Shown here piece by piece: positions 5,672 to 25,479 of a stretch of 29,480 bases of DNA (the first letter of the stretch is position 1; the number at the start of each line of letters is the position of its first letter). The stretch covers positions 1-29,480 of the IMG/VR virus record IMGVR_UViG_3300030109_000596; one strand, written 5' to 3'. This DNA is from a virus. The notes beneath the pieces are model-generated. The model ran no database searches. It was not told the DNA's origin and saw only the letters and a program-made list of their open reading frames with translations. Made by a program: the position numbers and the translations under genes.

Positions 5672-5942
5672 AGCACAAGAAGTAAAATGTCAAGCTGATG
5701 CAGTTTTATGGCATTTAAAAAAATATGGTAATATAACAAGTTATGAAGCTATTAAAGAATATGGAGCAACACGACTTTCAGCTATTATATTTAATCATAG
5801 AAAAAACGGATATGATATTGATAGCATGCCCCTAACCAAAAAAACTAGATTCGGCAGAACAACTAAAATAGCTAAATATATCTATACTGCACCACCTAGT
5901 AAATTATTTGAACAATTAGGAATGTTTTGTGAAATCAATTAG
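5652..5942 (+). CDS. Helix-turn-helix protein (HTH_39-like), 96 aa
   Basis: A 96-residue protein. Residues about 12-60 follow the pattern of a phage helix-turn-helix domain: VLWHLKKYGNITSYEAIKEY, then GATRLSAIIFNHRKNGYDI, then a basic KKTRFGRTTKIAKY wing. Proteins of this kind (HTH_39 group) probably bind DNA as small regulators or replication accessories. An in-frame ATG at 5568 exists, but the 28 added residues are hydrophobic and lie entirely inside the previous gene, so ATG 5652 is the chosen start. It overlaps the NinG-like gene by 14 bases. Confidence 0.7.
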   Translation: MKTITIKAQEVKCQADAVLWHLKKYGNITSYEAIKEYGATRLSAIIFNHRKNGYDIDSMPLTKKTRFGRTTKIAKYIYTAPPSKLFEQLGMFCEIN

Positions 5943-6333
5943 TAAATTAAAAAAAGAATTAGACAAATGGTTCAGTCTATATATCAGATTGAGAGAATCA
6001 ACTGAAGAAGGAGTATGCCAATGTTTTACATGCACTAAGGTAGACCATTATAAAAAGATGCAGTGTGGCCATTTTCAAAGTCGAAGGCATCATTCTACTA
6101 GATGGAATGAACAAAACTGTCAAGTGCAATGTGTAGCTTGTAATATGTTTAGAAGTGGGGAACAATGGAAATTTGGTCTTAGATTAGATTTTAAATATGG
6201 CGAAGGAGTTTCTGAAGAATTACAAACTTTAGCTAACACAACACATAAAAAAGCAAAATGGGAATACGAGGATGATATAAGTTATTACAAAAACTTTGTT
6301 AATAATTTAAAAAAGGAAAAAGGAATAGAGTAA
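5929..6333 (+). CDS. ninG: NinG-like recombination protein (HNH-like zinc fold)
   Basis: The 134-residue product carries the NinG/Rap signature: CQCFTC at 30-35, MQCGHFQSRRH at 44-54, TRWNEQN, and QCVACN at 67-72, so two zinc-binding Cys pairs flank a His-rich core. In lambda, Rap (NinG) binds branched DNA and directs recombination. Here it would act with the annealing protein at 3191 and the OB-fold protein. GTG 5929 is used as the start because it leaves the conserved ISKLKKELDKWFS helix intact; no ATG lies upstream in frame. It ends the replication and recombination block. Confidence 0.85.
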   Translation: MKSISKLKKELDKWFSLYIRLRESTEEGVCQCFTCTKVDHYKKMQCGHFQSRRHHSTRWNEQNCQVQCVACNMFRSGEQWKFGLRLDFKYGEGVSEELQTLANTTHKKAKWEYEDDISYYKNFVNNLKKEKGIE

Positions 6334-9112: not shown

Positions 9113-9977
9113 GTACCCTATTTATATACCATCAAAAGGAAGAGCAGATGTTTGTTATACAGCACAATGCTTTTTAAAAGATAAAGTAAATTTTAAAATT
9201 GTAGTTGAGCCTGCACAATTAGATGAATATAAAAAACATTATAATGAAAACTTAATTTTAGTATTGCCTGAAAATGGATTAAGATTGTTGGGTTCAAGAT
9301 TATGGATAAGAGAACACTCTAAAAAAAACGGCTTTGATAGACATTGGCAATTTGATGATAATATTAAAGTATTTAGAAGATTACATAAAGGGAAAAGAAT
9401 AAGATGTAATGCAAATATAGCTATTAAAGTAGTAGAGGATTTTACTGACAGGTATGAAAACATAGGACTGTCAGGATTTAATTATACTTTTTTTGCAGTA
9501 AATGAAAAAAAAACACCTTTTACTTTAAATTGTCACGTTTATTCAGCATCATTAATAAACAACACAATTCCTTATAAGTGGCGTTTATATTATAATGATG
9601 ATACTGATTTATGCTTGCAGATTTTAACAAGTAAAGAAAAATTATGTACAGTTTTATTTCACGCTTTTTTAGTAGACAAAATGGCTACAATGGTAGTTAA
9701 AGGAGGTAATACAGAGGATTTATATAAAAAAGATGGCAGATTAATAATGGCAAGAGCATTAGAAGAAGTATGGCCTGAATTGGTAAAAACGAAATGGAGA
9801 TTTGGAAGGCCCCAGCATGTAGTTAAAAATTCGTGGAAAGATTTTAAGAACCCCTTAATAAGAAGAACCGATATTGATTGGGATGAAATAGAACATAGAA
9901 AATATGATATTAAATTAAAACAAGTAAAAGAAATAAAAAGTAAAAATTTAAAAGAATTTTATAAAAAAAATAAATGA
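9105..9977 (+). CDS. Probable TAGT-family DNA base glycosyltransferase (GT-A fold)
   Basis: A 290-residue protein. IYIPSKGRAD near residues 6-15 is the nucleotide-sugar-binding start of GT-A enzymes; FDDN at 83-86 is the likely metal-binding DxD equivalent; LSGFNYTFF, YNDDTDLCLQ (163-172) and GGNT (200-203) follow, then RFGRPQH (232-238). This order agrees with the TET/JBP-associated glycosyltransferases (TAGT) described in phages, which are thought to add sugars to oxidised bases. An NDP-sugar epimerase directly follows (four-base overlap) and could supply the donor. No TET dioxygenase or base hydroxymethylase is encoded, so the acceptor is unclear. A virion-protein glycosyltransferase is the alternative. 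Confidence 0.68.
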   Translation: MNKYPIYIPSKGRADVCYTAQCFLKDKVNFKIVVEPAQLDEYKKHYNENLILVLPENGLRLLGSRLWIREHSKKNGFDRHWQFDDNIKVFRRLHKGKRIRCNANIAIKVVEDFTDRYENIGLSGFNYTFFAVNEKKTPFTLNCHVYSASLINNTIPYKWRLYYNDDTDLCLQILTSKEKLCTVLFHAFLVDKMATMVVKGGNTEDLYKKDGRLIMARALEEVWPELVKTKWRFGRPQHVVKNSWKDFKNPLIRRTDIDWDEIEHRKYDIKLKQVKEIKSKNLKEFYKKNK

Positions 9978-10882
9978 AAAAGATATTAGTAACAGGAGGG
10001 GCAGGATTTATAGGAACAAATTTAATAGAAGAATTGCTTACTAAATATAAGAAAGAACAAATCACAGTATTAGACAATCATTTTACAAGTAGTAATAAAA
10101 ATCATATAGAAGGTATAAAATATATCTATGGAAACACTTGGGATATTGATGAGATATTTAGACCTATTGGAAAATTTAAAACTAAATTTGATATTGTTTT
10201 CCATTTTGGAGAATTTTCAAGAATAGTTAGGTCGTTTGAAGATATTGAATATGTAATAGATACTAATTTAACGGGAACAGCTAAAGTTTTGCAAATGTGT
10301 AGTAAATGGAATGCTAAATTTATATATTCAGCTTCAAGTTCTAAATTTGGAAACGAAGGGAAAGATGAAAATTTAAGTCCTTATGCTTGGTGCAAAGCTA
10401 AAATGGTTGAGTTAATAAAAAATTTCAATAAATGGTATGATTTACAATATGAAATATGTTATTTTTTTAATGTGTATGGGGAAAATCAAATTGTAGAAGG
10501 AAATTATAAAGCAGTAATAGCAATATTTGAAGAACAATATAATAGTGAAAAGCCTATGACAATAGTAAATCCAGGAACACAAACAAGACATTTTACATAT
10601 GTAAAAGATATTGTAAAAGGAGTTATCAAAACAATAGATATTAATATGAATCACGAATGGTTCTTCCAAAATGAAAAAGAATATAGTATTTTAGAGGTAG
10701 CTAAATTATTTCATCAACAAGACAATTACTATAATCAAGAAATAGTTATTATACCATCCCGAAAAGGGGAAAGGTTTAATTCAATGATAATAAATAATGA
10801 CACAAGAAAAATATTAAATTGGAAACCTGAATATGAATTACATCAATGGATAAATAAAGTAAGAATTAATGGAACAAAATAG
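9974..10882 (+). CDS. NAD-dependent nucleotide-sugar epimerase/dehydratase (extended SDR)
   Basis: A 302-residue protein with the extended short-chain dehydrogenase layout. TGGAGFIG at 7-14 binds NAD, SASSSKFG (119-126) supplies the active-site Ser, and YAWCK at 137-141 is the catalytic YxxxK. YFFNVYGENQ and TRHFTYVKDIV match the sugar-binding half of UDP-glucose 4-epimerase and related enzymes. It probably converts one NDP-sugar to another in the cytoplasm. Its four-base overlap with the glycosyltransferase suggests that the product is that enzyme's donor. Which sugar is made cannot be read here. Its stop overlaps the terminase small subunit. Confidence 0.87.
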   Translation: MKKILVTGGAGFIGTNLIEELLTKYKKEQITVLDNHFTSSNKNHIEGIKYIYGNTWDIDEIFRPIGKFKTKFDIVFHFGEFSRIVRSFEDIEYVIDTNLTGTAKVLQMCSKWNAKFIYSASSSKFGNEGKDENLSPYAWCKAKMVELIKNFNKWYDLQYEICYFFNVYGENQIVEGNYKAVIAIFEEQYNSEKPMTIVNPGTQTRHFTYVKDIVKGVIKTIDINMNHEWFFQNEKEYSILEVAKLFHQQDNYYNQEIVIIPSRKGERFNSMIINNDTRKILNWKPEYELHQWINKVRINGTK

Positions 10883-11222
10883 AACACAAATAGCAAAAAA
10901 AAGAATGTTAGAAGCACTAGAGAAAAGTCTAGGAGTTGTAACAACAGCATTGAAGTCAACAGAATTATCAAGAACAAATTATTATAAGTGGCTAAAAGAG
11001 GATGAAGAATTTGCAGTTAAAGTTCAAGAAATAGAAAACATATCAAAAGACTTTGTAAAGTCAAAGTATTATGAATGTGTAAAAGATAAAGTACCATCAG
11101 TAGTGATACATGCTGCAAAAACAAAATTAGGATGGAACGAAACTAATAACATAGATATAACGTCAGGCAACAAACCAATTAATATGCCTGTAATAAAATT
11201 TGTAGAAACTGATACTGAATAA
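10869..11222 (+). CDS. terS: Terminase small subunit (HTH type)
   Basis: A 117-residue protein with a helix-turn-helix start, KKRMLEALEKSLGVVTTALK followed by STELSRTNYYKWLKEDEEF, typical of small terminases that recognise the packaging site. Then comes an oligomerisation helix and the conserved-looking PSVVIHAAKTKLGWNETNNI. Position directly before the large subunit supports the call. It overlaps the epimerase by 14 bases and the proposed start of the large subunit by eight. Confidence 0.85.
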   Translation: MEQNRTQIAKKRMLEALEKSLGVVTTALKSTELSRTNYYKWLKEDEEFAVKVQEIENISKDFVKSKYYECVKDKVPSVVIHAAKTKLGWNETNNIDITSGNKPINMPVIKFVETDTE

Positions 11223-12411
11223 AAAATATAACGCTTTATTTAATTCCGATGCTAGATACTTTATAATTACAGGGGGGAGAGGTTCTGGTAAGTCTTTTGC
11301 TGTTACGGTATTTCTAACTTTACTCACAATGACTCAAGGCATTAGAATTCTTTTTACAAGATTCACAATGGTGTCTGCTCACTTATCTATTATTCCAGAA
11401 TTTTTAGAAAAAATAACATTATTAGGATTTGAAGATATTTTTAATATTAATAAAGCAGAAGTGTTAAATATGAGTAATCAATCCGACATATTATTTAGAG
11501 GAATAAAAACATCATCAGGTAACCAAACAGCAAGACTAAAATCTTTACAAGGGATAAGTTGTTGGGTATTAGATGAAGCAGAAGAACTTATTGACGAGGA
11601 TATATTTGATACTATTGATTTAAGTATAAGGGAGAAAGGAGTACAAAATAGAGTGATTTTAATTTTGAATCCTACAACTAAAGAGCATTGGATATATAAT
11701 AGATTCTTTCAAGACAAAGGAATAGAAGATGGATTTAATGGCGTTAAAGACAATATATGTTATATCCATAGTAACTATTTAGATAATAAAGATAATCTCT
11801 CTAAGAGCTTCCTAGAGCGTATAGAAGGGTTAAAGCATACTAATTTTAAAAAGTACCAACATAAAATACTTGGAGGATGGTTAGATAAAGCAGAAGGAGT
11901 TGTGTTTGAAAATTGGAGTTTTGGAGAATTTAATCCTAATGATTTACAAACATCTTGTGGAATGGACTTTGGTTTTAGTATAGACCCTGATAGTCTTGTT
12001 GAAGTAGCTATTGATAAAAAACACAAAAGAATATATGTCAAAGAACATATTTATCAAAATGGTTTAAAATCACACGAATTAGCAAAAATAGTTTTAGATA
12101 AGGTAGATGATAAGTTAATAATAGCAGATAGTGCAGAACCAAGACTGATAGAAGATTTAAGACATTTAGGAGTTAATATAAAACCTGTAAAAAAAGGAAC
12201 GATTGAAAGTGGGATAACAAGGATGCAAGATTATGAATTAATAGTAACACCTGAATCAACAAACATAGCTAAGGAATTAAACAATTATGTCTATGCAGAC
12301 AAAGGTTCAAAATTATATGTAGATAATTACAATCATTCAATTGATGCTATCCGTTATAATTGCATATACCATTTAGATAATCCTAATGCAGGAAAGTATT
12401 TTGTACAGTAA
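11215..12411 (+). CDS. terL: Terminase large subunit, proposed non-ATG (CTG) start
   Basis: Read from CTG 11215 the protein has 398 residues. Walker A is GGRGSGKS at 20-27 and Walker B is VLDEAEE at about 118-124. The nuclease part has acidic residues in GMDFGF (D251), IADSAEP (D305) and NHSIDAIRY (D377), as in Terminase_3-type subunits. The first ATG in frame (11329) would remove Walker A, so translation must begin upstream. The frame is open back to a TAG at 11203-11205, and that stretch holds no ATG, GTG or TTG. CTG 11215, CTG 11209 or ATA 11212 are the only near-cognate starts. The protein cuts and pumps phage DNA into the prohead. Confidence 0.88.
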   Translation: MNKKYNALFNSDARYFIITGGRGSGKSFAVTVFLTLLTMTQGIRILFTRFTMVSAHLSIIPEFLEKITLLGFEDIFNINKAEVLNMSNQSDILFRGIKTSSGNQTARLKSLQGISCWVLDEAEELIDEDIFDTIDLSIREKGVQNRVILILNPTTKEHWIYNRFFQDKGIEDGFNGVKDNICYIHSNYLDNKDNLSKSFLERIEGLKHTNFKKYQHKILGGWLDKAEGVVFENWSFGEFNPNDLQTSCGMDFGFSIDPDSLVEVAIDKKHKRIYVKEHIYQNGLKSHELAKIVLDKVDDKLIIADSAEPRLIEDLRHLGVNIKPVKKGTIESGITRMQDYELIVTPESTNIAKELNNYVYADKGSKLYVDNYNHSIDAIRYNCIYHLDNPNAGKYFVQ

Positions 12412-12546
12412 ACCCCCAACATTAATAAGGAAGAACGACAAGAGAAGAATTAGGGGATTTACTGAATCACAACTAAAATGAGCAACAAATATATATAAAT
12501 ATTTCAAACAATAAACTAAATTACTAATTTTTCTATAATATAATAT
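12412..12546. other. 135-base intergenic gap between packaging and tail genes
   Basis: No convincing gene is present; the longest ATG frame is six codons (12478-12498). CCCCC (12412-12416 area) and GGGG (12461-12464 area) can form a loose stem, but there is no T-run, so it is not a clear terminator. The last 20 bases hold the TCTATA-core motif found before other virion genes. Confidence 0.5.
12527..12546 (+). promoter_or_regulatory. AT motif ATTTTTCTATAATATAATAT before tail operon (candidate late signal)
   Basis: This word lies immediately before ATG 12547. A near-identical word occurs at 24958-24975 immediately before another structural gene, and shorter versions (TCTATA core) at 21802-21817 and 22543-22557. 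It could be a late promoter for the phage sigma factor, which would give leaderless or very short-leader transcripts, or a translation-initiation leader. Confidence 0.4.
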
Positions 12547-13146
12547 ATGAAAGTCAAGATTAAAAAGAAGGGAAAGACAAAAGAATTTAAACTAATTAAT
12601 AATTGGTCAGAAGTAACCTTTGAAAAATGGTTAAAATTAATTGACTTTAAAACAGGAACGAAAAGCCAAGAAGCTAATGATACGATAGAATTATTATCAG
12701 ATATTCCTAAAAAATTAATTAATCAATTAGAAATAAAGGATGTAGCTATAATGATGAGTTATATAGCAGAGTTGCAACAAAAGGAAAATACAACATTAAA
12801 AAAAATAATTACAATCAAAGGAATAGAATATGGCTTTCATCCTGATTTGGATAGTATAACTCTTGGGGAGTATGCAGATTTGGAAACATTTATAAAAGAT
12901 AATATGGAAAAGAATTTACCTCAAATTATGGCAATTTTGTATAGACCAATAAAGGAAAAGGGAGAAAATGGGGTGTATACTATTGATGCTTATGATGGAG
13001 ATATACGGATAAGGACGGAGGAAATGAGAAAGATGGTAGCTGAACAAGTGCAAAGTGCGCTGGTTTTTTTTTATCATTTAGGGAAAATGTTATTAGGGAC
13101 TTTGCCATTATCTTTGATGCAGCGGATAAAGGAAATGAATCAGTGA
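12547..13146 (+). CDS. Tail assembly chaperone, upstream frame (gpG-like)
   Basis: A 199-residue protein matching, in size and position, the first of the two tail assembly chaperones found before tape measure genes. It has NNWSEVTFEKWLKL near the start, IELLSDIPKKLI, a central GFHPDLDSITLGEYADLE, and AEQVQSALVFFYHLGK near the end. The family is recognised from similar flavobacterial phages, not from a catalytic motif. At codons VFF a U_UUU_UUU heptamer (13065-13071) allows -1 frameshifting into the next frame. Chaperones of this kind coat the tape measure protein before tail polymerisation. It follows a gap with a candidate late signal. Confidence 0.75.
   Translation: MKVKIKKKGKTKEFKLINNWSEVTFEKWLKLIDFKTGTKSQEANDTIELLSDIPKKLINQLEIKDVAIMMSYIAELQQKENTTLKKIITIKGIEYGFHPDLDSITLGEYADLETFIKDNMEKNLPQIMAILYRPIKEKGENGVYTIDAYDGDIRIRTEEMRKMVAEQVQSALVFFYHLGKMLLGTLPLSLMQRIKEMNQ
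13065..13071 (+). promoter_or_regulatory. Programmed -1 frameshift site U_UUU_UUU
   Basis: T TTT TTT is in register with the zero frame (GTT TTT TTT TAT, residues VFFY), inside a run of nine T (13064-13072). Slipping back one base moves ribosomes into the frame that continues open, with no stop, through 13071-13322 and ends at TAA 13323-13325. The shift gives a fusion of about 175 + 84 = 259 residues. Tail chaperone pairs of this layout (lambda G/GT) use -1 frameshifting. Confidence 0.72.
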
Positions 13147-13325
13147 AAGTATCAGAATCATTTGCAGACAAGTGGGGATGGTTTGGAGTAATGTATAGAT
13201 TAGCAAATAGTGAAATAATAAATTTAGAAAAAATAACAAGACTTAATTTGTTTGAATGTTTAACTTGGTTAAGTTATGAAACGGATTTAAACTTACAAAA
13301 TAAAGTACAATATGGCAGTAACTAA
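13071..13325 (+). CDS. Tail assembly chaperone, frameshift extension (gpGT-like)
   Basis: This frame has no ATG near its beginning. Its first usual start is GTG 13143, which overlaps the upstream stop, but the frame is already open from the slippery site at 13065-13071, so it is annotated as the extension part of a -1 frameshift product. The extension contains FADKWGWFGVMYRLANSEI and then ECLTWLSYETDLNLQNKV, a short helical domain typical of the second chaperone part that binds tail tube subunits. A separate 60-residue protein from GTG 13143 is possible; an AAAGGA word lies about 10 bases upstream of it. Confidence 0.65.
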   Translation, partial: LSFRENVIRDFAIIFDAADKGNESVKVSESFADKWGWFGVMYRLANSEIINLEKITRLNLFECLTWLSYETDLNLQNKVQYGSN

Positions 13326-13860
13326 TAAAACTTATAATAATGTAATAGATACATTAACAGAAATAGCAGAAGATTATCATCAAATATCTACTGTTTCAGT
13401 TGGAGATATTTACGATATTAATTTGGAGAAGATGCAAAAATTCCCTTTGATGCATATAAATCCTATAAATGTAGAAACAGGTGATGCTACATTAACTTAT
13501 AATTTTCAAATATTCATAATGGATATGGTAACTGAAAAAAGTGATTGGCCTACACATGACCAAAGAGAAAATAGTAAATTAATTTACAATAAGACTAATG
13601 AACAAGAAGTATATAATCAAACGCTACATATAGGAATAGATATAATTGGAATATTAAGACATAGTTCCAAAATGTCAGCTTATGGTACAACTGATATTAA
13701 TGCTCCTATATATCATACAGAAGGTCAATATACTTTAGAGCCATTTCAAGAAAGATTTGACAACCTTTGTTGTGGGTGGGTTTTTAATTTGAATGTAGAA
13801 GTATTAAATGATTTTCAAACTTGTGATATACCATCTAATATGCAGGGGATAGGAAGATGA
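13312..13860 (+). CDS. Structural protein, probable tail/neck component, 182 aa
   Basis: A 182-residue protein without catalytic motifs. Its layout (VIDTLTEIAEDYHQISTVSVG, then MHINPINVETGDATLTYNFQ, and a C-terminal LCCGWVFNLNVEVLNDFQTC) is that of a beta-rich phage structural protein seen in flavobacterial siphoviruses near tail chaperones. A tail completion or terminator role is possible. It overlaps the chaperone frame by 14 bases and is coupled to a 22-codon frame at its end. Confidence 0.6.
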   Translation: MAVTNKTYNNVIDTLTEIAEDYHQISTVSVGDIYDINLEKMQKFPLMHINPINVETGDATLTYNFQIFIMDMVTEKSDWPTHDQRENSKLIYNKTNEQEVYNQTLHIGIDIIGILRHSSKMSAYGTTDINAPIYHTEGQYTLEPFQERFDNLCCGWVFNLNVEVLNDFQTCDIPSNMQGIGR

Positions 13861-13925
13861 TAAAATTTAAAATAGGTAAATATAAAATAGAAATAGGATT
13901 TTTTAAAATAACAATAAGATTATGA
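13857..13925 (+). CDS. 22-residue micro-ORF coupled on both sides by ATGA overlaps
   Basis: ATG 13857 overlaps the stop of the upstream gene (ATGA), and its own TGA (13923-13925) overlaps the ATG of the next gene (ATGA). It encodes 22 residues with an alternating Lys/hydrophobic pattern, including KIGKYKIEIGFFKITI, that looks like two or three short beta strands. Without it there would be a 61-base gap in an otherwise overlapping operon. The double ATGA overlap is unlikely to be chance. Confidence 0.55.
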   Translation: MIKFKIGKYKIEIGFFKITIRL

Positions 13926-14272
13926 AATATGAAGATGTATTAGAAGAATTAGAATCAATAAGTATAAAATTAGAATCTTATAATGATTATCCTCAGTCAG
14001 CAACTAACAATGCTAAACGTGCAAGAAAATGGAAAAAAGAAAATGGTAGTAAATGTGGCACAAGAGTTGGGTGGACAAGAAGTTCACAATTGGCAGATAA
14101 AAAACCTATAAGCAGAGATACAATAGCACGTATGGCATCATTTAAAAGACATCAACAACATAAAGATGTACCATATTCAGAAGGGTGTGGTGGTCTGATG
14201 TGGGATGCTTGGGGTGGGACTTCAGGTGTTAATTGGGCAATAAATAAATTAAAACAAATAGATAAAAAATAA
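13922..14272 (+). CDS. Conserved phage protein with TR-GWTRSSQLA / WGG motif, 116 aa
   Basis: The 116-residue product has an ordered set of motifs that I have seen in many phage head-region proteins: YPQSATNNAKRARKWKKENG, then GTRVGWTRSSQLADK, DTIARMASFKRHQQH and LMWDAWGGTSGVNWA. The segment occurs alone or fused to portals and proteases; its job is unproven. It follows the 22-codon frame with an ATGA overlap and precedes a structural gene by five bases. A role in head-tail assembly is inferred from context. Confidence 0.65.
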   Translation: MKYEDVLEELESISIKLESYNDYPQSATNNAKRARKWKKENGSKCGTRVGWTRSSQLADKKPISRDTIARMASFKRHQQHKDVPYSEGCGGLMWDAWGGTSGVNWAINKLKQIDKK

Positions 14273-14277
14273 AAATT

Positions 14278-14727
14278 ATGGCAGATTTAGTAACAACAAT
14301 AAGTGAGAGTGTCACTTTAAACGGAGCAGTCAGAGGTTCTACTAACTCAGTAACAACTTCAAATATTACTGATGTAATGGAGAGAATAGTAACTTGTGCG
14401 CACACAAATACAACAACAATAGCAATCTTTAATTCTACATCGCATGGAGCAGCAGGAGCATTAGATTTAGAGAACTGTAAATATATTCGTGTAACGAATT
14501 TAAGCGTTACGGAACATATGGATTTAGCAGTTGTAACCGAAAACACAAATTATCAAGTAGTAATAACAGCAGGGAATTCACATATATTATGTCAAGCAGA
14601 TACAGCGGCAATAGGTGAAGAAGATACAACTCCAGCTTTTGGAACTTTAGAAGATGTTACAAGTTTACAAATACGACCTAGAGGAACAGAAGATATTCAG
14701 GTTGAATTGTTTGTTGGATTATTGTAA
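14278..14727 (+). CDS. Virion structural protein, 149 aa
   Basis: A 149-residue beta-rich protein with repeated Thr-rich strands (MADLVTTISESVTLNG, TSNITDVMERIVTCAHTNTT) and VELFVGLL at the end. There is no enzyme motif. Composition and position among tail genes support a small virion protein, maybe a decoration, tail or fibre-associated subunit. It is coupled to the next gene by a one-base overlap (TAATG). Specific role unknown. Confidence 0.6.
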   Translation: MADLVTTISESVTLNGAVRGSTNSVTTSNITDVMERIVTCAHTNTTTIAIFNSTSHGAAGALDLENCKYIRVTNLSVTEHMDLAVVTENTNYQVVITAGNSHILCQADTAAIGEEDTTPAFGTLEDVTSLQIRPRGTEDIQVELFVGLL

Positions 14728-15260
14728 TGAAAACACAAAATATAGAAAGGTATTTGAATAGCTTTGGTAAATATATTATCAAGCAATCAAGAACAAATCT
14801 TACTAAAGGTAAAAAAAACGTAAGTAAAGACTTATACAATTCTTTGCAATTTCAAGTTTTACCTGATAAAAAAGGATTTGTAATACAATTTTCTATGGCT
14901 GAATATGGAACATTTGTAGACAAAGGTGTTTCAGGAAATGATAAGAAAAGGGAATACAAGGATTATCTTGGCAAAAAAGTATCTAGTCCTTATAAGTATA
15001 CAACAAGACAACCTCCTTCAGGAATATTAGAAAAGTGGATAAGTGCAAGAGGATTAAAAGGAAGAAATGCAAAAGGTAGATTCATAACAAATAAATCATT
15101 TGCTTTTTTAATAGCAAGAAGTATCAAAGCAAAAGGAATAAAAGGAATTAGCTTCTTTCAAAGGCCAATGGAATTAGGATTAAAAAAGTTTGGTGGTGAT
15201 TTATTAAATGCACTAAAGGGAGATATTAAAGAAAGTTTAAATAAAACAATAGTAAAATAA
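14727..15260 (+). CDS. HK97 gp10-like neck / tail completion protein, 177 aa
   Basis: A 177-residue protein. SMAEYGTFVDKGVSG around 57-71 and SFAFLIARSIKAKGIKGISF followed by FQRPMELGLKKF match the pattern of gp10/HK97-like minor tail or neck proteins, which join the head to the tail. The gene lies between a small structural gene and the large tail proteins, consistent with this. It overlaps the next gene by one base. Confidence 0.7.
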   Translation: MKTQNIERYLNSFGKYIIKQSRTNLTKGKKNVSKDLYNSLQFQVLPDKKGFVIQFSMAEYGTFVDKGVSGNDKKREYKDYLGKKVSSPYKYTTRQPPSGILEKWISARGLKGRNAKGRFITNKSFAFLIARSIKAKGIKGISFFQRPMELGLKKFGGDLLNALKGDIKESLNKTIVK

Positions 15261-16681
15261 TGGCAACATCAATAATAGAACAAGAACCAAAATATTATTC
15301 GCTACCTGTAGGACAACCTATAATATTTGTAATCTCAAATGATACAGCAGTCGCTAATGAATCAAATGTAATGTTTTTCGCAGATGTACATATATCATCA
15401 GAAGGCCCTCCTAATTTAAGTGTAGGAGATAAAATTATTGGTAGATTCCAAACTACACCTAACAATAAAGGTGTCGGAATGTTTGACTTTTCTAGTGTGG
15501 TTGAAAATTTTGTAAGTGCAGATGTCGGTGCTAGTCCTAACGCAAAGCATGATGAGTTTGGTGCAGCATCTGCCACTTTAAATGAGTCATATCCAATACA
15601 TATAATAGACAAATATTCTTATAGTTTAAACTCTGTAAGATTTATGAAGATTCAATTTGGTGTACAATATTTAGATACAACAAGTACCCCTCCTGCTGTT
15701 GTGGTTGATACTACGACATTAGTTAATACAACAGGTACTTATAAATTAATGAATGGCTATTTGAAAGAAACTGATGAACTGGAAACAACATCTACTAAAT
15801 TCGGATATAATATAATTTCTAAATTCGCATTAGCAACTACCTCAAAGTCTTTTTTATCAAATATGCCTACTACATTATATTGCGATATTGATGACTATGG
15901 TACAATAGCAATGTATACTCCTAATTCTACTTCAGGGGGCTTCACTCATATGGAATTAGAATACGTATGGGGAGATGGTTCAGGCTCTCAAACTGTAGAT
16001 GTAAATAGAGGAAATGGTAATGGAGCTTGGGCTGCATGGAGTTTAATAGCTACAAACTGTCAATTATATTTTTCTCCTTTCCCTGCTAATTTAAATGCGT
16101 GGGAACCTATTTTTCAAGGGGAATATACTTCAGGGAAAATTAAAGGAGGTTTGATAAGAGTTAGGGCAATGAATGGTGTTCAGCAATATAGTAAACAATA
16201 CACTATAAAAGTAAATTGTGATGAAGAGAAAGGATATGAACCTATTAGATTAGCTTGGTTAAATCAGTGGGGTGCTTATGATTATTGGACATTTAATAAA
16301 AAATCAATCAACAGTATTAATAGTTCACCTACTACTTGGAATCAATTATCGGGAACTTGGGGTGAATCTAAATATGCACCAAGATGGCAGGGAGGAGAAA
16401 AGAATCTTAGAATGAATAGCAAAGAAAGATATAGAATCAATACAGATTTTATTGGAGAAGAGTATAATGTTATGTTTGAGGAAATGATAAATAGTCCAAT
16501 AGTATACAAAATAAGGCCATATCATTTAACTAATTTTAATTATGCACATAATTCAAAACTAGTACAATCTGTAAGAGTTTTGACAAATTCATTTACTAAA
16601 AAAACAAGAGCAAATGACAAATTAATCCAATATGGTTTTGAGATAGAATTGTCTAAAACATTAAAAACTCAATCTGTCTAA
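15260..16681 (+). CDS. Tail structural protein, 473 aa
   Basis: A 473-residue beta-rich protein with no signal peptide. Recognisable stretches are EPKYYSLPVGQPIIFVISND, a GTYKLMNGYLKETDELETTS region, WLNQWGAYDYWTFNKKS and a C-terminal RVLTNSFTKKTRANDKLIQ. It is the type of protein found before the tail-tip gene in flavobacterial siphoviruses; the WLN-WGAYDYWTF segment is conserved among them as I remember it. A distal tail or baseplate component is likely. It overlaps the next gene by one base. Confidence 0.6.
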   Translation: MATSIIEQEPKYYSLPVGQPIIFVISNDTAVANESNVMFFADVHISSEGPPNLSVGDKIIGRFQTTPNNKGVGMFDFSSVVENFVSADVGASPNAKHDEFGAASATLNESYPIHIIDKYSYSLNSVRFMKIQFGVQYLDTTSTPPAVVVDTTTLVNTTGTYKLMNGYLKETDELETTSTKFGYNIISKFALATTSKSFLSNMPTTLYCDIDDYGTIAMYTPNSTSGGFTHMELEYVWGDGSGSQTVDVNRGNGNGAWAAWSLIATNCQLYFSPFPANLNAWEPIFQGEYTSGKIKGGLIRVRAMNGVQQYSKQYTIKVNCDEEKGYEPIRLAWLNQWGAYDYWTFNKKSINSINSSPTTWNQLSGTWGESKYAPRWQGGEKNLRMNSKERYRINTDFIGEEYNVMFEEMINSPIVYKIRPYHLTNFNYAHNSKLVQSVRVLTNSFTKKTRANDKLIQYGFEIELSKTLKTQSV

Positions 16682-19425
16682 TGGCATTGCAATTAATAGT
16701 TTATAATCAAAATACTAAACAAGGGTTTGGTTCTGATATTAATACTGAATTTGAATTAACAACAGATGGACAAATATTTGTTACTGTAAATGATGTGCCA
16801 ATTGAAACAAACACCACAGCTTTTGGAATGTTAGCAAATTGGAATAATCTTGATGTACCTATAAATACTTGGCGCAAATTTTCATCTGATGCTACTGACC
16901 CCATTACTGCAAGTGATAATACTGTAACCTTTGCAGATGCTGGTTCAGGTATTGCTCAAACAATTTCTCAATTAGAAATAGGACAAACTTATAATGTAGA
17001 TTTAAATACTGCTTCAGGAAGTTTTAAAACTACAATAGGATATAATATTGAAGGTCAAGTACAACTTCTTAATTCTGATTTTCTTGGTTTTCAGACCTCA
17101 GAGATAGGAAACAACATATTTAGTTTTACTGCACCGACTACTGAAATGTTTATGTTTTTTGAAGCAACAACACCAGCAACTGTTTTAAATTCGGTTTCTA
17201 TTACAGGGGCACCAGTAGTGCCATCAGGAGCAATTGGAGTTTTATATGGTGAAAAAAGCATATGTGACTTATATACTGAAGAATCTATTCCTTTAGTGCT
17301 TAGTATAGATGATTTTAAAAATGCAGCAGAACAAACTCAATCATATTCCAAAGCATTTGATTTGCCAGGCACAAAAAAAAATAATGTTATATTTAGCTAC
17401 ATATTTGAAATAACTAGAAGTTGGCAATCTATTAATTTCAATCCTTATATAAAAACAAAATGTGAGTTAAAAGAAGATGGTTTTTTAATCTTTGAAGGTT
17501 ATCTACAATTATTAAATATTAAAGACAAAGAAGGTGAAATAAGTTATAGTGTTAATATTTATTCTGAAGTTATTACTCTTGCCGATATTTTAAAAACTAG
17601 AACCTTTGCTCAATTAAATACAGTATTTGAGGAATTAGAACACCCATATGATAAAAATCAAATCAAATATAGTTGGAATGATTCAGGAACAGGAATAACT
17701 TGGGATAACCCAAGTACATCAGGGTTTAGAGATTATGCTACTTTAAAATATCCTTTTGTAGATTGGACACATCAATATTCTACAGATATTTTAGGACAGC
17801 CAATGTTATCTACTTTAGAAACAGCATTTAGACCTTGGATTCAAATATACTATTTAATAAATGTAATATTTGAAAGTTTACCACAATTCAAATATACAAG
17901 TACATTTTTTGAAACTGATGAATTCAAAAAGTTATATATGGATTTTAATTGGGGTTCAGGGAATGGCCCTTTGAATATATCTAATACAGTTGGGGCAAAT
18001 TGGATGAATGTAGGTTCACCATGGTATGCAGGAAATGGAGTGTGGACACCTTTGTTATTAAATACACCACAACAAGAATTATTAGATATTGGGTACAGTT
18101 CTTCCCCTATTTCTGGAACATTTACATCTTCAAATGATAATACAGTCTATTCTATTAATTATACTTGGTATTTAGAATTGAATTCTACAGCAGATGTTAA
18201 TTTTAGATGGTTAATAACAAGAGTAAGTGGTTTAACAGAAGAAATAGCACTAGAAAATAATGTAGGAGTAGGTATGGGATATTTTACAATATCAGGCTGG
18301 TATGATTTTACCTTAAATCAGGGAGATACTTTAGTCCCACAATTCATGAGTAATGATGTATTTGTTCTTGAAGAAGTTGTTAATTTACAATCTGTATCTA
18401 TTCAAGCAACAGTAGCTAGTACAACATCATCTTCTATGCTTCAAAATTTAAGAGGGGAATTAAATCAATGGGATTTTCTTAAAGGGATAATGACTATGTT
18501 CAATTTAGTGAGTGTTCCTGACAAAGATAATCCAAATAATATTATAATTGAAACATATGATACTATTTTCAATAATAGCACAAACACAGGGACTACTTCA
18601 GATTTATCATTAGCAGGTAGAGGAATTAAGCATGATTGGACAGAAAAAATTGATGTATCACAAATATCTTTAACACCTTTAGATATTGCTGCAAAAGTTG
18701 TATTAAAATATGAAAATGATACTGGAGATTATATTGCACAAAGTTATAAAAGTGGAACAGGAGGAATAGAATATGGGGCTTATTATCAAGACTTTAGCTC
18801 TTTTTATAATATATTAGAAGGAACAAATGAAATAGTTGCATCACCTTTTGCTCCTACAATTTCAAAAATGTTAGACCCATCTTGGGCTCAATTAGTAACT
18901 CCTGCAATTTATTCTTATAATTCTGATGATGATACTTCTGAAGGGTTTGATAATTTACCAAGAATATGCTATAACAATGGGAAAGTAACTATGAATTCTT
19001 TTACCTATTACATACCTGCACAAGCAGGATTTGCAAGTGAAGACCAACCAGGATATTTGCAATTCAGTCATTTAACAGATGTACCCACAATTGTAAGTAC
19101 TCCTCCTGCTTCAACTGACACTAATGATTTTAATTTTGGTGAATCTCAATATTTGTTAGGTCTTGGGGATACTTCAGTAAATAATTTAACTAATAGATTT
19201 TGGTTACCTTATTTAATGGAACTGTATCATCCTGACACTAAAACAATGACATTAAAAGTTAACTTAACTCCTTCTGATATAGCAACATTTAAATTTAATG
19301 AAACTGTATTTATAAAAAATAGACAATTTAGAGTAAATAAAATAGAATACCAAGCAGGTCAATTATCTACAGTGGAATTTGTTTTAATAAATGATTGGCT
19401 AAAAGGTAGAATTGGAGATGGATAA
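16681..19425 (+). CDS. Large tail-tip / hub-like protein, 914 aa
   Basis: The largest protein in the genome (914 residues). Around 197-310 it has YTEESIPLVLSIDDFKNAAE, then YSKAFDLPGTKKNN and KTKCELKEDGFLIFEGYLQL, a hub/baseplate-like beta domain. The N-terminal 190 residues contain an IEIGQTYNVDLNTASGSF-type carbohydrate-module-like insertion (about 75-175). The C-terminal part (about 600-900) has WDFLKGIMTMFNLVSVPD and KNRQFRVNKIEYQAGQLST, typical of tail hub proteins. It likely forms the tail tip that contacts the host. No peptidoglycan hydrolase motif is visible. Confidence 0.65.
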   Translation: MALQLIVYNQNTKQGFGSDINTEFELTTDGQIFVTVNDVPIETNTTAFGMLANWNNLDVPINTWRKFSSDATDPITASDNTVTFADAGSGIAQTISQLEIGQTYNVDLNTASGSFKTTIGYNIEGQVQLLNSDFLGFQTSEIGNNIFSFTAPTTEMFMFFEATTPATVLNSVSITGAPVVPSGAIGVLYGEKSICDLYTEESIPLVLSIDDFKNAAEQTQSYSKAFDLPGTKKNNVIFSYIFEITRSWQSINFNPYIKTKCELKEDGFLIFEGYLQLLNIKDKEGEISYSVNIYSEVITLADILKTRTFAQLNTVFEELEHPYDKNQIKYSWNDSGTGITWDNPSTSGFRDYATLKYPFVDWTHQYSTDILGQPMLSTLETAFRPWIQIYYLINVIFESLPQFKYTSTFFETDEFKKLYMDFNWGSGNGPLNISNTVGANWMNVGSPWYAGNGVWTPLLLNTPQQELLDIGYSSSPISGTFTSSNDNTVYSINYTWYLELNSTADVNFRWLITRVSGLTEEIALENNVGVGMGYFTISGWYDFTLNQGDTLVPQFMSNDVFVLEEVVNLQSVSIQATVASTTSSSMLQNLRGELNQWDFLKGIMTMFNLVSVPDKDNPNNIIIETYDTIFNNSTNTGTTSDLSLAGRGIKHDWTEKIDVSQISLTPLDIAAKVVLKYENDTGDYIAQSYKSGTGGIEYGAYYQDFSSFYNILEGTNEIVASPFAPTISKMLDPSWAQLVTPAIYSYNSDDDTSEGFDNLPRICYNNGKVTMNSFTYYIPAQAGFASEDQPGYLQFSHLTDVPTIVSTPPASTDTNDFNFGESQYLLGLGDTSVNNLTNRFWLPYLMELYHPDTKTMTLKVNLTPSDIATFKFNETVFIKNRQFRVNKIEYQAGQLSTVEFVLINDWLKGRIGDG

Positions 19426-19437
19426 AAAACAAAAAAT

Positions 19438-20292
19438 ATGACACAAATACCTTATTTACCAAATTATAAAATAAAACCAAAAGTTGTTTCGCGAGTTGGT
19501 CAAGTTACATTTACAGATGGAACAAATGATGTTATGCCTAACCAAAAACAATGTGAAGCTTATGGCTACACTTATGATAAAGCAACAGGGACTTGTAGAG
19601 CTTTCACATATAACTCACAATTAATACAAAGAACTAGTGAAACTAATAATAGGAAGCAGGGTGATAATAATGTAACTGAAGCAGGAACTTTAAATGCTTC
19701 AATAATGGGGGAAGATAATTTTATTAGAAGGGGTTCAAAAAATAATTCAGTAACAGGAACAAATAATGAAGTAAATAAAAAAGTATTAAATACAGCAAGT
19801 ATAGGACAAGGCGCAAATGCAATAATGAATAATTCTATTGTATTAGGTGGTAATAATTCCACAGATAGAATAGGCACAAGACAAACTTGGACAGTTATGT
19901 ATGGAGGTCAGACTACAGACAATTCAACAGTAGATATTTATCCAAACAACACAGCATTAACTTTTTTTCAGCCACAAGCAAATAGATTATATTATTTCCA
20001 ATCAGAAACAATGGCAGTAAGAATAGGGGGTGCAAGTGGTTCAGGAGCAGTTGGTGACTTTAAGGCTTGGGTTGAACGTGGGGTTGTTAAGTGTAATGGA
20101 ACAGGAACACTAAGTATAGAAAGGTCAAGAACATCTCCTGCTAGTAATGGGACAACAACAGGATGGGTTGCTACTAATGCAGTAAGTGGTTCTAATTTTA
20201 GACAAACAGTAAAAGGAGTAAATAATATGACAATAGAATGGGTAAGCACAATTAAATTTATGCAATTAAGTACAGGTGTAACATTACCTTAA
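19438..20292 (+). CDS. Trimeric fibre-like protein with YadA/Hia-type repeats, 284 aa
   Basis: A 284-residue protein. Residues about 85-145 contain a run of short turns (ASIMGEDN, NSVTGTNN, ASIGQGAN, SIVLGGNN) like the left-handed beta-roll repeats of YadA-type adhesins and trimeric phage fibres. Two Cys (CEAYGYTYDKATGTC) precede them. The C-terminal half, rich in Gly, Thr and Trp, could be a receptor-binding head. A receptor-binding fibre at the tail tip is the best reading, supported by the tail-tip gene just before it. Confidence 0.6.
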   Translation: MTQIPYLPNYKIKPKVVSRVGQVTFTDGTNDVMPNQKQCEAYGYTYDKATGTCRAFTYNSQLIQRTSETNNRKQGDNNVTEAGTLNASIMGEDNFIRRGSKNNSVTGTNNEVNKKVLNTASIGQGANAIMNNSIVLGGNNSTDRIGTRQTWTVMYGGQTTDNSTVDIYPNNTALTFFQPQANRLYYFQSETMAVRIGGASGSGAVGDFKAWVERGVVKCNGTGTLSIERSRTSPASNGTTTGWVATNAVSGSNFRQTVKGVNNMTIEWVSTIKFMQLSTGVTLP

Positions 20293-20305
20293 AAAAAATA
20301 AAGAT

Positions 20306-21781
20306 ATGGCAAGTAAATCAGATACATATACATTTAATGTAAAATCAAATATAGGAGAAACAACTAAAGATGCTAGTTCATTAGCAGGTGAGTTTAAAAT
20401 AATGGGTGTGTCATTAAATTCTGTTAAAGCAGGATTTGTATCAGTTGGTAAAACAGCAAAAGCATCATTTGCAACTATTAAAGCAGGTATAATGTCAACA
20501 GGTATAGGAGCATTACTTATTGCTGTTGGTTCTTTAGTTACATTTTTTACAAATACTAAACGAGGAGCTGACCAATTAGACCAAGCATTCACAGCAATGG
20601 GAGCTACTATTGATGTGTTAAAAGATAGGTTAAGTAAAGTGGGAGAAGCATTATCATTTGTATTTTCAGGAGAGTTTAAAAAAGCAGGAGAAGCTTTAAA
20701 AGGAACATTTTCAGGTATAGCTGATGAAGTAGAACGAGAAGTATCAGCGATGGTTGCATTAAAGAAAAGAACACAAGAACTTAGAGATGCAGATATGGAG
20801 TTTATGGTTCAAAAAGCTAAGACTAGACAAGAGATAGAAAAGGCTAGATTAATTGCAGAAGATGAAACAAAATCAGCATCAGAAAGATTATCTAATCTTA
20901 AAAAAGCATTAGAATTAGAAGCAGAAACAACACAACAAGAACTTGTACTTGCTAGAGAAAGAATGAAAATTCAAGAAGAAGAAATGGCATTAAGTGAAAA
21001 CTCTGCTGAAGATGAACAAAGATTAGCACAATTAAAAACAGAAATTATAGAAAAGGAAACTGCATCTATTAAAATGAGAAGAAGGGTTGTTACTGAAGTT
21101 AATAGTTTAGAAAGAGAAATACAAGCAGAAGAAAAAGCAAGAGCTGATGAAAAACAAGCAATATTAGATGCAGAAATTGCTGCACAAATAAAAGCTAATG
21201 ATGAATGGAATAAAGCACAAGAAGAAAAATATAAGAAAGAAGTAGAAGCAGCAAAAAAAGCAGCAGATGAAAAGATAGCAGAAGCAAAAAGAGTAGCAAA
21301 AGAAGAAGAAGATATTTCAAAAGCTGTTGAAGATGCAAAAATTGGATTAATAAAACAAGGATTTGGAATGGCACAAAGTTTAGCAGGAGAAAATGCTGCA
21401 TTATCAAAAGGAGTTGCCGTTGCACAAACAGTATATTCTACTCAACAAGCAATAATGGCAGCATTAGGAGCAACTTCTGTTGGTGATAAATTACTTCCTT
21501 ATCCTTTGAGATTAGCTAATGCAATTGGGGCAGGAGTTATGGGAGCAGCATCTATAGCTAAAATTATGTCAACAAATCCTACTGGTGGAGGTGGTGGTGG
21601 AGGAGGAGGAGTATCAGGAGTAAGTGCTTCAAGTGGAACACCATCTCCTCAAATGATGTCAGGCGAAGTAGATTTAACAGGATTATCTGCTCCTGAACCT
21701 GTAAGGGCTTATGTAATGACAGATGAAATGACTAATAGTCAAGAGCAACTTGCTAGTATAAGACGTAGGGCTACAATTTAA
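20306..21781 (+). CDS. Tape measure protein, 491 aa
   Basis: A 491-residue protein with the usual order: an N-terminal GEFKIMGVSLNSVKAGFVSV-type segment, a hydrophobic stretch GIGALLIAVGSLVTFF near 66-81, a long charged coiled coil from about 120 to 360 (Glu/Lys/Arg/Ala heptads), then a Gly/Ala helical region and nine consecutive Gly near 431-439. Tape measure proteins set tail length; at about 1.5 A per residue this one would give a tail of roughly 70-75 nm, which is a rule-of-thumb estimate. It follows the fibre gene, an unusual order because tape measure usually precedes the tail-tip genes. Confidence 0.85.
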   Translation: MASKSDTYTFNVKSNIGETTKDASSLAGEFKIMGVSLNSVKAGFVSVGKTAKASFATIKAGIMSTGIGALLIAVGSLVTFFTNTKRGADQLDQAFTAMGATIDVLKDRLSKVGEALSFVFSGEFKKAGEALKGTFSGIADEVEREVSAMVALKKRTQELRDADMEFMVQKAKTRQEIEKARLIAEDETKSASERLSNLKKALELEAETTQQELVLARERMKIQEEEMALSENSAEDEQRLAQLKTEIIEKETASIKMRRRVVTEVNSLEREIQAEEKARADEKQAILDAEIAAQIKANDEWNKAQEEKYKKEVEAAKKAADEKIAEAKRVAKEEEDISKAVEDAKIGLIKQGFGMAQSLAGENAALSKGVAVAQTVYSTQQAIMAALGATSVGDKLLPYPLRLANAIGAGVMGAASIAKIMSTNPTGGGGGGGGGVSGVSASSGTPSPQMMSGEVDLTGLSAPEPVRAYVMTDEMTNSQEQLASIRRRATI

Positions 21782-21801
21782 AAATCAAATAAATAATAAC
21801 T

Positions 21802-21817
21802 TAATCTATATATAAAT
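21802..21817 (+). promoter_or_regulatory. TCTATA-core AT motif before protease gene
   Basis: TAATCTATATATAAAT lies directly before ATG 21818, in one of the few gaps (36 bases) of the late region. It resembles the words at 12527-12546 and 24958-24975. It may be a late promoter or translation leader, and the match is short. Confidence 0.3.
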
Positions 21818-22543
21818 ATGCCGTGTAAAAAATGTAAAGATGGAAAAGTCAAATGGGGAAACACAGGAAGCTGTGAATATGATACCATTGAAGAATGTGA
21901 AGAAGCAAATAAAGATTATTACGAAAATCTAAAAACAACAGGGATTAGAGAATTAATTATTGCAAATGAAAATGAAGAATTAGCTATTGATGCTATTTCT
22001 TTAGTATCATCTCCTGCAATTGAACAAGATTTTGTTTTTTTTGGCAAAGAGAAAAATAACTTAACTTTTGCAAAGGTAGATGAAGAAAAGAGAATGTTAG
22101 TTTCTCCTGCATTGATACCTAATAAGCAAATATTTAGATACGACCCAAATACTGATTCTGAATACTATGTTTATTTTAGTCCTGAAACAGTACGTAAGGC
22201 TTCTGAACTTTATTTAAAGCATAACAATCATCATAAAGCAACGTATGAACATCAAGACAGAGTTAGTGGAGTTTTGACAGTTGAATCTTGGATAAAAGAA
22301 GGCGACCAAGATAAATCAAAGTTATACGGATATGATTTACCTAATGGAACTTGGTTTGTAAAAATGAAAATTAACAATGATGAATTATGGTCTAAAGTTA
22401 AGGATGGTTCTTTAAAAGGATTATCTATTGAAGGCTACTTTACAGATAAGATGGAAAAAATGGCTGAAAAAGAACCAACAAATGAAGAAATACTATCAGC
22501 ACTTAACGAAATAATAAACGAAAATCAAACAAAATCAAAATAA
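21818..22543 (+). CDS. Prohead maturation protease (XkdF / Peptidase_S78_2-like) with N-terminal Cys domain
   Basis: A 241-residue protein. Residues 48-215 fit XkdF-like putative prohead serine proteases: AIDAISLVSSPAIEQDF, EKRMLVSPALIPNKQIFRYD, a candidate catalytic His in KATYEHQDRVSG (H145) and Ser in GSLKGLSIEGYF (S203). It should cut scaffold and capsid subunits during head maturation. The first 30 residues form an extra Cys motif (MPCKKCKDG, GSCEYD, EECEEAN; four Cys) not needed for the protease and maybe binding zinc. It is followed by scaffold and capsid genes, as expected. Confidence 0.8.
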   Translation: MPCKKCKDGKVKWGNTGSCEYDTIEECEEANKDYYENLKTTGIRELIIANENEELAIDAISLVSSPAIEQDFVFFGKEKNNLTFAKVDEEKRMLVSPALIPNKQIFRYDPNTDSEYYVYFSPETVRKASELYLKHNNHHKATYEHQDRVSGVLTVESWIKEGDQDKSKLYGYDLPNGTWFVKMKINNDELWSKVKDGSLKGLSIEGYFTDKMEKMAEKEPTNEEILSALNEIINENQTKSK

Positions 22544-22567
22544 ATCTATAATATTAAAAAAGAAACT

Positions 22568-23245
22568 ATGGACATTAAAGAAAAAATTTTAGTAGCACTT
22601 GGTCTTAATAAAGAAGATGAAGTGAAATTAGCTTGGCAGGGAAAATCAGAAGATGGAACAATTTTTGTTTCTACTGCTGAAGAATTAGAATCAGGTGTAG
22701 ACATTTCGGTATTAACTGAAGATGGTACTACAATTTTATTACCTGTAGGAACTTATAAAACAGATACAGGAATATCTTTTAGAGTAGATGCTGAAGGTAT
22801 TGTAGCTGAAGTTATTGAATCAGAAACAGAAGAAGAAGTTGAAGCATCAGATGAAGAATTAGCAGTAGACGATGGTAAAGAAGCTGATGTTGATGACTGG
22901 GCAGGTATGGAGAAAAGAATCCAAAACCTAGAAGATGCGGTAGCAAAATTAAAAGAAGATAAGATTGGTGGAGATGATGATGTTGAAGAAATGACTGAAG
23001 AAGTTATTGAACCATCTGATAAACCAAAAACAATAACAACAAAAGAAGTTAAAGAATTTTCAGCAGAAGATGAAGTAGCAAATTTAAAATCTGAGAATGA
23101 AAAACTTAAAACAGAATTGGCAGAAAGTCCTGCTGATACTCCAATAAACACAAATAAATTTAGCTCACAACGACCTGTAATTTCAAGAAGGGATTACAAT
23201 AAATTGTCTAAAAGAGAGAAATTTTTACACGACTTAAACAAATAA
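22568..23245 (+). CDS. Capsid scaffold-like acidic protein, 225 aa
   Basis: A 225-residue protein, very acidic in the middle (ESETEEEVEASDEELAVDDG), with a predicted coiled coil (MEKRIQNLEDAVAKLKED and EVANLKSENEKLKTELAES) and a basic tail (RRDYNKLSKREKFLHDLNK). The combination of acidic core, coiled coils and basic C-terminal helix is typical of scaffold proteins, and its place between protease and major capsid gene agrees. A TCTATA-core AT word (22543-22557) lies in the leader. Confidence 0.72.
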   Translation: MDIKEKILVALGLNKEDEVKLAWQGKSEDGTIFVSTAEELESGVDISVLTEDGTTILLPVGTYKTDTGISFRVDAEGIVAEVIESETEEEVEASDEELAVDDGKEADVDDWAGMEKRIQNLEDAVAKLKEDKIGGDDDVEEMTEEVIEPSDKPKTITTKEVKEFSAEDEVANLKSENEKLKTELAESPADTPINTNKFSSQRPVISRRDYNKLSKREKFLHDLNK

Positions 23246-23269
23246 ATAATAACCAAAAAATAAAAAAAA

Positions 23270-24217
23270 ATGGCTTTTAGCGTAACAAGTAATTTCAGAG
23301 GAAAGGCGGCAGGATTTTATATCAGTGCTGCATTAAACCAAGCAACATCACTTGACTATCTTACAATGATAGAAAATGTGAAATATGAATCTAATATTCA
23401 ACGTATGGCAATAACTGCAGATTCAACTCCAGCAGGGCCAATTACGGCAGCAAGTTGTGATTTCACAACAGCAGGAGATTTAGATTTAACAGAAAAAGTA
23501 TTAAAACCAACCAATCTACAAGTTAACTTACAACTTTGTAAAGCTAATCTTCTTTCAAGTTGGGAAGCTCTACAAATGAGAGCAGGAGCAGGAGCACCAC
23601 CACCAGCATCTTTTGAAGACTATCTAATTTCTTATATGGGAGAAGTTATAGCAGATGCAACTGAAACTTCAATATGGGCAGGAGATGCAGTAACAGGAGG
23701 AGATTTTTATGGCTTTACAGGAGGAACAAATGGTTACCTTAGAGCAACAGGAGCTAATGCTGATGCAACAGTTAATCAAGCTGTATTATCAGGCGGAGCA
23801 GGTGTTGCACCAGTAGTAGGAACTATTATAGCAGATTTACAAGTTGCTTTAGATGCTACTCCATCATCAATTATTGGAAAAGAAGATTTACATATCTATG
23901 TAAACCAAAAAAATTACCAACTTTATATTCAAGCAGTATCTTTATTAGGTTACATGAACGCTTACAATATGAATAGTGATTACGAGCCAAGAGTTAATGG
24001 AGTAAGAATTGCAGTTTGTAATGGATTACAGGATGCAGAAATTGTAGCAGCTCAAAAATCTAACATGTTCTTCGGAACTGACTTGCTTTCAGATGCAACT
24101 AGAATCCAACTTTTAGACATGGCTGAGCTAGATGGTTCAGACAACATGAGAATGGTTGCAAGATATTCTGCAGGTGTTCAAACTGGAGTTGGTGCTGATA
24201 TAGTATTAGTATCGTAA
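23270..24217 (+). CDS. Major capsid protein, HK97-fold type, 315 aa
   Basis: A 315-residue protein in the scaffold-capsid position. It shows a loop-like N-terminal region, then LQLCKANLLSSWEALQMRAG, a FEDYLISYMGEVIADATETS spine-helix-like segment and a C-terminal ADLQVALDATPSSIIGKEDL / MFFGTDLLSDATRIQLLDM part, consistent with the HK97-fold P- and A-domains. It would form the capsid shell after scaffold removal. It is preceded by 24 A-rich bases and followed by a UUCG hairpin, which may help give it high, discrete mRNA levels. Confidence 0.85.
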   Translation: MAFSVTSNFRGKAAGFYISAALNQATSLDYLTMIENVKYESNIQRMAITADSTPAGPITAASCDFTTAGDLDLTEKVLKPTNLQVNLQLCKANLLSSWEALQMRAGAGAPPPASFEDYLISYMGEVIADATETSIWAGDAVTGGDFYGFTGGTNGYLRATGANADATVNQAVLSGGAGVAPVVGTIIADLQVALDATPSSIIGKEDLHIYVNQKNYQLYIQAVSLLGYMNAYNMNSDYEPRVNGVRIAVCNGLQDAEIVAAQKSNMFFGTDLLSDATRIQLLDMAELDGSDNMRMVARYSAGVQTGVGADIVLVS

Positions 24218-24230
24218 TAAACTAATTAAT

Positions 24231-24258
24231 AGATGCAAGGGCTTCGGCTCTTGCTTCT
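24231..24258 (+). terminator. UUCG-tetraloop hairpin after capsid gene (terminator or mRNA end)
   Basis: GCAAGGGC (24235-24242) pairs with GCTCTTGC (24247-24254) around a TTCG loop, with one G-U pair. AGA/TCT extends the stem by three pairs past a T-T mismatch. The downstream tail TTAACCCTT is only partly U-rich, so termination may be partial or the hairpin may instead protect capsid mRNA. Confidence 0.65.
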
Positions 24259-24282
24259 TTAACCCTTAAAAAATAAAAAACT

Positions 24283-24867: not shown

Positions 24868-24908
24868 CTAATAAAATTTTTAGTAGTTTCCTTATATATT
24901 CTTAGATT

Positions 24909-24939: not shown

Positions 24940-24957
24940 TAAGCAAATAAAAACAAG

Positions 24958-25455: not shown

Positions 25456-25479
25456 ATTAAAAAATAAAAAATAAAAAAA

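Follow-up and report, generated by a model that had tools for sequence, protein, structure and literature searches.

A conserved run of nine Ts appears to join two overlapping frames of a tailed-phage gene, possibly through transcriptional slippage

The window, by which we mean the whole stretch of DNA analysed (29,480 nucleotides, positions 1 to 29,480 of IMG/VR record IMGVR_UViG_3300030109_000596, one strand, 5′ to 3′), is tailed-phage DNA, judged by its gene content, and the host of the phage is probably a member of the Bacteroidota. ORF A, which follows the gene for the terminase large subunit, is crossed by a run of nine Ts (T9), from which a second frame, B, continues in the −1 register (Table 1). 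The A codons across the run are GTT TTT TTT TAT, which bears out the reading of T TTT TTT in the correct register by an earlier note on this DNA. The −1 frame is open up to position 13325, also as that note had it, and the open stretch begins at 13044, upstream of the run. Residues 1-175 of A form the N-terminal part of a predicted A-B fusion, to which the −1 frame would add 84 residues, giving 259 aa (175 + 84), in agreement with the length of about 259 residues proposed before. Read with the predicted shift, the site encodes V-F-F-L-S-F-R. The head of the second frame carries no ATG, as stated earlier; to this we add a GTG that overlaps the TGA of A, because of which B is called as a separate ORF of 60 aa.

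Table 1. Coordinates of the features at and around the A/B locus
Feature	Position	Strand	Description
Terminase large subunit	11329-12411	+	Directly 5′ of A/B
ORF A	12547-13146	+	ATG to TGA (13144-13146), 199 aa; short product
Terminator-like hairpin	13047-13061	+	AGTGCA-AAG-TGCGCT, then GG, then T9
T9, predicted recoding site	13064-13072	+	T TTT TTT at 13065-13071 in A register
B, −1-frame part of predicted fusion	13071-13325	+	84 residues, LSFRENVIRDF...GSN, then stop 13323-13325
Reduced synonymous change	13119-13145	+	B codons +17 to +25, around GGAnCnGCTGAAGGAAATGAA; 50-75 nt past T-run
GTG at TGA of A	13143-13145	+	Apparent start of 60-aa ORF; overlap GTGA
Tape-measure-like protein, candidate	20306-21781		~7 kb from A/B
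Protease	21818		
Capsid-like protein	23270		Assignment mainly by sequence character
Tail-tube-like protein, candidate	24283-24867		~11 kb from A/B; assignment mainly by sequence character
Portal	26493		

The plus-strand ORFs of the window contain 94 sites of the form X XXY YYZ (Y = A or T), and a long −1 extension, running 179 nt past the stop, is found at the T9 site only. Two adjacent sites in a 134-aa ORF at 5929-6333, with A AAA AAG at 6309, have a −1 extension of 80 nt past the stop and mark a possible second recoding site. The head and tail genes of the window genome are rearranged. Specifically, the order from 11329 to 28511 is odd, with terminase first, followed by A/B, tail genes with the tape-measure candidate, protease, capsid and the tail-tube candidate, and with portal last. 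A gene resembling NAD-dependent epimerase/GDP-mannose dehydratase (9974-10882) lies just upstream of the packaging genes.

Among annotated phages, a tblastn search matched only the Nonlabens (Persicivirga) phages P12024L and P12024S of the genus Inhavirus, at ~30% identity. In these two phages, the homologues (genes 40/41 and 38/39) are annotated as two separate hypothetical proteins right after the large terminase gene, so that the terminase large subunit adjoins A/B there as in the window; A is ~30% and B ~32% identical, and the T9 and TTTTTTTTTATCATTTAGGGAA are identical. Scans of IMG/VR added hundreds of relatives that fall into three families, namely the window family, a P12024-like family and a third family. 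Neither the scan of the third family nor the second scan of the window family selected for the run, as their peptide patterns lie outside it; among the patterns of the P12024 scan, one (FFYHLGND) spans the run. The loci that span the site number 275, of which 273 were located by script and two (L246 and L277) were read directly; they derive from 272 distinct contigs (three pairs are the same contig), fall into 136 clusters when grouped at 95% identity and into 36 when grouped at 70%, reach down to ~30% protein identity and include the isolates P12024L and P12024S. Three loci (L145, L146 and L147) carry the gene pair on contigs in metagenome-assembled genomes labelled Euryarchaeota and Pseudooceanicola; these are probably phage contigs that were wrongly binned, and hence give no evidence of the host.

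All 275 site-spanning loci have nine Ts or more in a row, with T9 in 272 and T10 in three (L103, L135 and L156); of the 207 loci in the first two families, all 207 have T9 or T10. The earlier note had proposed comparing the slippery site in related phages and had named a broken T-run with both frames kept as the case against it; among the 275 relatives there is no such case. Two registers of the run are seen. In the window family, parsimony gives about nine changes of register or length, none of which leaves fewer than nine Ts, as exemplified by GCT TTA CGG TTT TTT TTT GTT and by GCC CTT TTT TTT TTC TAC, in which the last T is lost and the run is longer upstream. Even after such register changes, runs of seven or eight Ts are absent from the 275 loci. 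The shifts of register may owe their spread to recombination.

The third positions of the two Phe codons inside the run show no change on the tree, and both codons are TTT in all relatives. Elsewhere, Phe third positions change 18-25 times at the four most variable columns, and 1-6 times at three columns just downstream, in the overlap. Position 13071 (T or C), the only base free in both frames, has changed twice, as compared with a mean of about six changes at comparable Leu sites, which makes it a weak discriminator. As most bases of the run are also fixed by the encoded amino acids (V-F-F in A, F-L in B), the exact T9 is only partly independent evidence.

Protein conservation follows A up to the run and B after it. 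In particular, A is conserved in all relatives up to the FF at the T-run, while conservation of B sets in with the first residue past the run, in the pattern FFLxFRxRI..DFAIIFDG...ESFAEKWGYFGVMYRL...TWLSYETDL. Within the frame overlap, window-family sequences vary most at position 3 of the B codons (diversity 0.484 vs 0.417 and 0.298); B codon position 3 is also the most diverse beyond the stop of A, and upstream of the run it is position 3 of the A codons. Given that nine Ts or more are kept in 275/275 loci and that conservation of B starts at the T-run, the fusion is not due to chance. Judged by sequence comparison, it is close to certain that the locus would yield A plus an A-B fusion by −1 recoding at the T-run. 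A and B would then be one gene with two products, the 199-aa A by itself and, in smaller amount, the 259-aa A-B fusion.

The same comparison bears on an account with no recoding, in which translational coupling at the GTGA overlap (13143-13146) would let B be made alone. Consistent with coupling, a GTG overlaps the stop of A in the window, and a frame-B start codon of some kind is found no more than 30 nt from the stop of A in 36 of 64 window-family relatives. Among relatives, however, the distance from the slip site to the stop of A ranges from 55 to 259 nt while B stays open and constant, the segment FxxFR..I..DFAIIFDG, upstream of any such start, is strongly conserved, and coupling would leave the invariant T9 without a reason; we therefore regard coupling as highly improbable. 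The GTG/TGA overlap itself is not conserved among relatives, and the GTG at 13143 was rejected as the real start of B, given that the stops of A vary and that B is conserved before the GTG.

Homopolymers are prone to sequencing error, and an error of sequencing or assembly in the T-run might split one real gene into two apparent ones. Against such an error, an identical T9 and frame break recur in 272 distinct contigs, those of the isolates P12024L and P12024S included, and the tail of A past the slip site varies in both sequence and length and is not the remnant of a single gene; this explanation is extremely unlikely. With recoding as the preferred reading, a hypothetical gene pair that is annotated apart even in isolates would amount to a single recoded gene across hundreds of environmental phages, members of a large group of aquatic tailed phages that is very common, and gene callers will split every gene recoded in this manner.

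A second stretch of constraint lies in the overlap, downstream of the run (Table 1). The ratio of observed to expected synonymous change at 13119-13145 is 0.41 and 0.22 in two subgroups that have different A stops. As the A tail beyond this stretch is unconstrained in the long-stop subgroup, selection on the A tail alone does not explain the dip, and RNA folding does not explain it either. The depletion of synonymous change is broader in the P12024-like phages, where it covers the first part of the overlap.

Since a ribosomal slip and a transcriptional slip give the same protein, protein evidence alone cannot decide between them. The earlier note had called the site a canonical −1 frameshift; its claim that recoding joins the two frames holds, with no broken run among the 275 loci, whereas its ribosomal mechanism is less secure, as transcriptional slippage gives the same protein and agrees better with the conserved run length, the hairpin 5′ of the run and the absence of structure 3′ of it. 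In a classical −1 ribosomal frameshift of the lambda G/GT kind, two tRNA-Phe would slip on T TTT TTT (13065-13071), again giving A and A-B. A low rate would be enough, the ratio in lambda G/GT being ~30:1. In agreement with a ribosomal slip, every relative keeps a perfect X XXY YYZ heptamer with two TTT codons in the A register, and −1 ribosomal shifts are in wide use in lambda-type tail genes (PMC5009743). Four observations speak against it: seven Ts would serve a ribosome, yet runs of seven or eight are missing from the 275 loci; a downstream hairpin is not found by single-strand or alignment folding (pseudoknots lie outside both); the hairpin that is conserved is 5′ of the run, and so near that a ribosome at the site would melt its stem; and in E. 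coli, ribosomes slip poorly on U_UUU_UUU (PMC5009743). We consider a ribosomal frameshift a real but less probable alternative.

A downstream stimulatory RNA structure is common in −1 ribosomal frameshifting and is not obligatory. RNAalifold predicts no pair downstream of the run in two families, pseudoknots being outside the folding, and the mean z score of downstream folding is −0.16 for 65 window-family sequences and −0.07 for 35 P12024-like sequences. The downstream sequence of the window folds worse than its own shuffles in single-strand folding. A downstream hairpin was accordingly rejected as a stimulator, neither kind of folding, pseudoknots aside, having given one.

The run has the features of a site of transcriptional slippage, being an uninterrupted A/T run of about nine that is conserved in length and free in register. 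Nine A or T residues are an efficient length for slippage (PMC5009743), and 9T is the slippage-prone length in many bacteria, length nine being avoided in many genomes (PMC1088944). Insertion by E. coli RNA polymerase on T7/T8 amounts to ~5-10% and is biased to poly(T) (PMC6260861); this rate and the weakness of the ribosomal slip site are E. coli values, and the host here is probably one of the Bacteroidota. Transcriptional slippage is favoured because U_UUU_UUU is weak, no downstream structure is found, the register moves never leave fewer than nine Ts, and the 5′ hairpin abuts the run. Given that the fusion is made, polymerase slippage is in our view somewhat more likely than not to be its main route.

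The RNA:DNA hybrid in RNA polymerase is ~9 bp. In the proposed mechanism, RNA polymerase would realign on the T9 and add one U (U9 to U10), and the U10 transcripts would be read through V-F-F-L-S-F-R into the B frame. One gene giving two proteins by programmed transcriptional slippage at T9, likely a pair of the G/GT type, is in our judgement the best explanation of the locus, and we hold it with some reserve.

The sequence immediately upstream of the run forms a terminator-like hairpin, one of two terminator-like sites found in the region where 0.3 are expected. In the window clade, the stem scores 11.7, as compared with 3.7 after synonymous recoding, and the two synonymous sites that could break the stem are both biased toward pairing. 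Specifically, Val is encoded by GTG at the stem in 56 of 58 sequences, against a background of ~5% for this rare codon, and Ala is encoded by GCA or GCG (GCR) in 56 of 58, against a background of ~59%. We found no two-sided covariation in the stem, and so the case for the hairpin is carried by codon choice. The hairpin is absent from the P12024-like phages, the isolates P12024L and P12024S among them, and from the third family. In the window clade, this nascent-RNA hairpin, which ends 2 nt before the run, would probably aid slippage by pausing the polymerase.

The hairpin and the T9 might instead be an intragenic attenuator or terminator, with slippage as a by-product. The combination does score as an intrinsic terminator, and codon choice holds the hairpin in place in the window clade; the other two families, however, keep the T9 without the hairpin, and an attenuator leaves the conserved −1 frame unexplained, which makes this alternative very unlikely.

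Polymerase slippage in A/B would resemble that in known slippage genes, including Thermus dnaX, Shigella spa13/mxiE and IS elements, in which about nine A or T residues in the coding region likewise link two frames and no translational stimulator is needed. The likeness to the window clade extends to a Roseiflexus IS, in which a 5′ nascent-RNA hairpin beside the slip run stimulates slippage (PMC5009743). These are cellular or IS genes, unlike the phage pair A/B, and a literature search returned no example of transcriptional slippage in phage tail genes and no prior report of the A/B family. If polymerase slippage is the true route, two unrelated ways of decoding would have led phage tail genes to the same two-product design, and the ratio of the products could follow transcription conditions and not the ribosome.

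As to function, the earlier note had named A and B a tail chaperone pair. A/B shares its predicted two-product design with G/GT; no homology to known chaperones was found, and A/B does not lie beside a tape-measure or tail-tube gene. Like lambda G/GT, A/B has one start from which a short protein and a −1 fusion with a small C-terminal domain would be made, belongs to a tailed phage with a tape-measure-like gene, and has a −1 fusion frame that is conserved among relatives. Lambda G/GT is a −1 ribosomal frameshift conserved in long-tailed phages, and differs from A/B in having a mixed heptamer in place of T9, in its shorter frame overlap and in its position between tail tube and tape measure, while A/B adjoins terminase and no downstream RNA structure is found in it. 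Nor does A/B lie between the candidates for tail tube and tape measure in the window, which are 11 and 7 kb away.

No similarity of A/B to known tail chaperones was found in sequence or fold (Pfam, NCBIfam, PDB), and neither A nor B has any match in these three collections. The only family matches are to PHROGs of unknown function, namely phrog_32199 for A (E 1.5e-14) and phrog_38404 for B (E 1.6e-5). The structure models, with pLDDT 62 for A and 55 for B, are too weak to decide function, and Foldseek searches with them returned only P12024S and uncharacterised phage proteins, with nothing in PDB. Owing to the lack of a chaperone family match and to the unusual place, A/B is not filed as a member of G/GT. 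By analogy, a role of A and A-B as tail chaperones is plausible, most likely as a tail assembly pair of the G/GT type in which A would be in excess and A-B would be the scarcer, linking partner. More tentatively, and with a chance that we would put somewhat short of even, a G/GT-like protein ratio may be set by polymerase slippage on the invariant T9, boosted by the hairpin in one clade, as a transcriptional counterpart of the lambda G/GT frameshift.

The fold searches also gave a weak match of A (E 2.9e-3) to AGN89393 of Flavobacterium phage 6H, which was set aside, there being no clear T9 and no matching B. At the 6H locus matched by A (L211, complement of 10352-10927), a CDS ends at TTTTTTC and is followed by an unannotated gap, with frames that are not clearly resolvable; the gene may be a distant recoded homologue.
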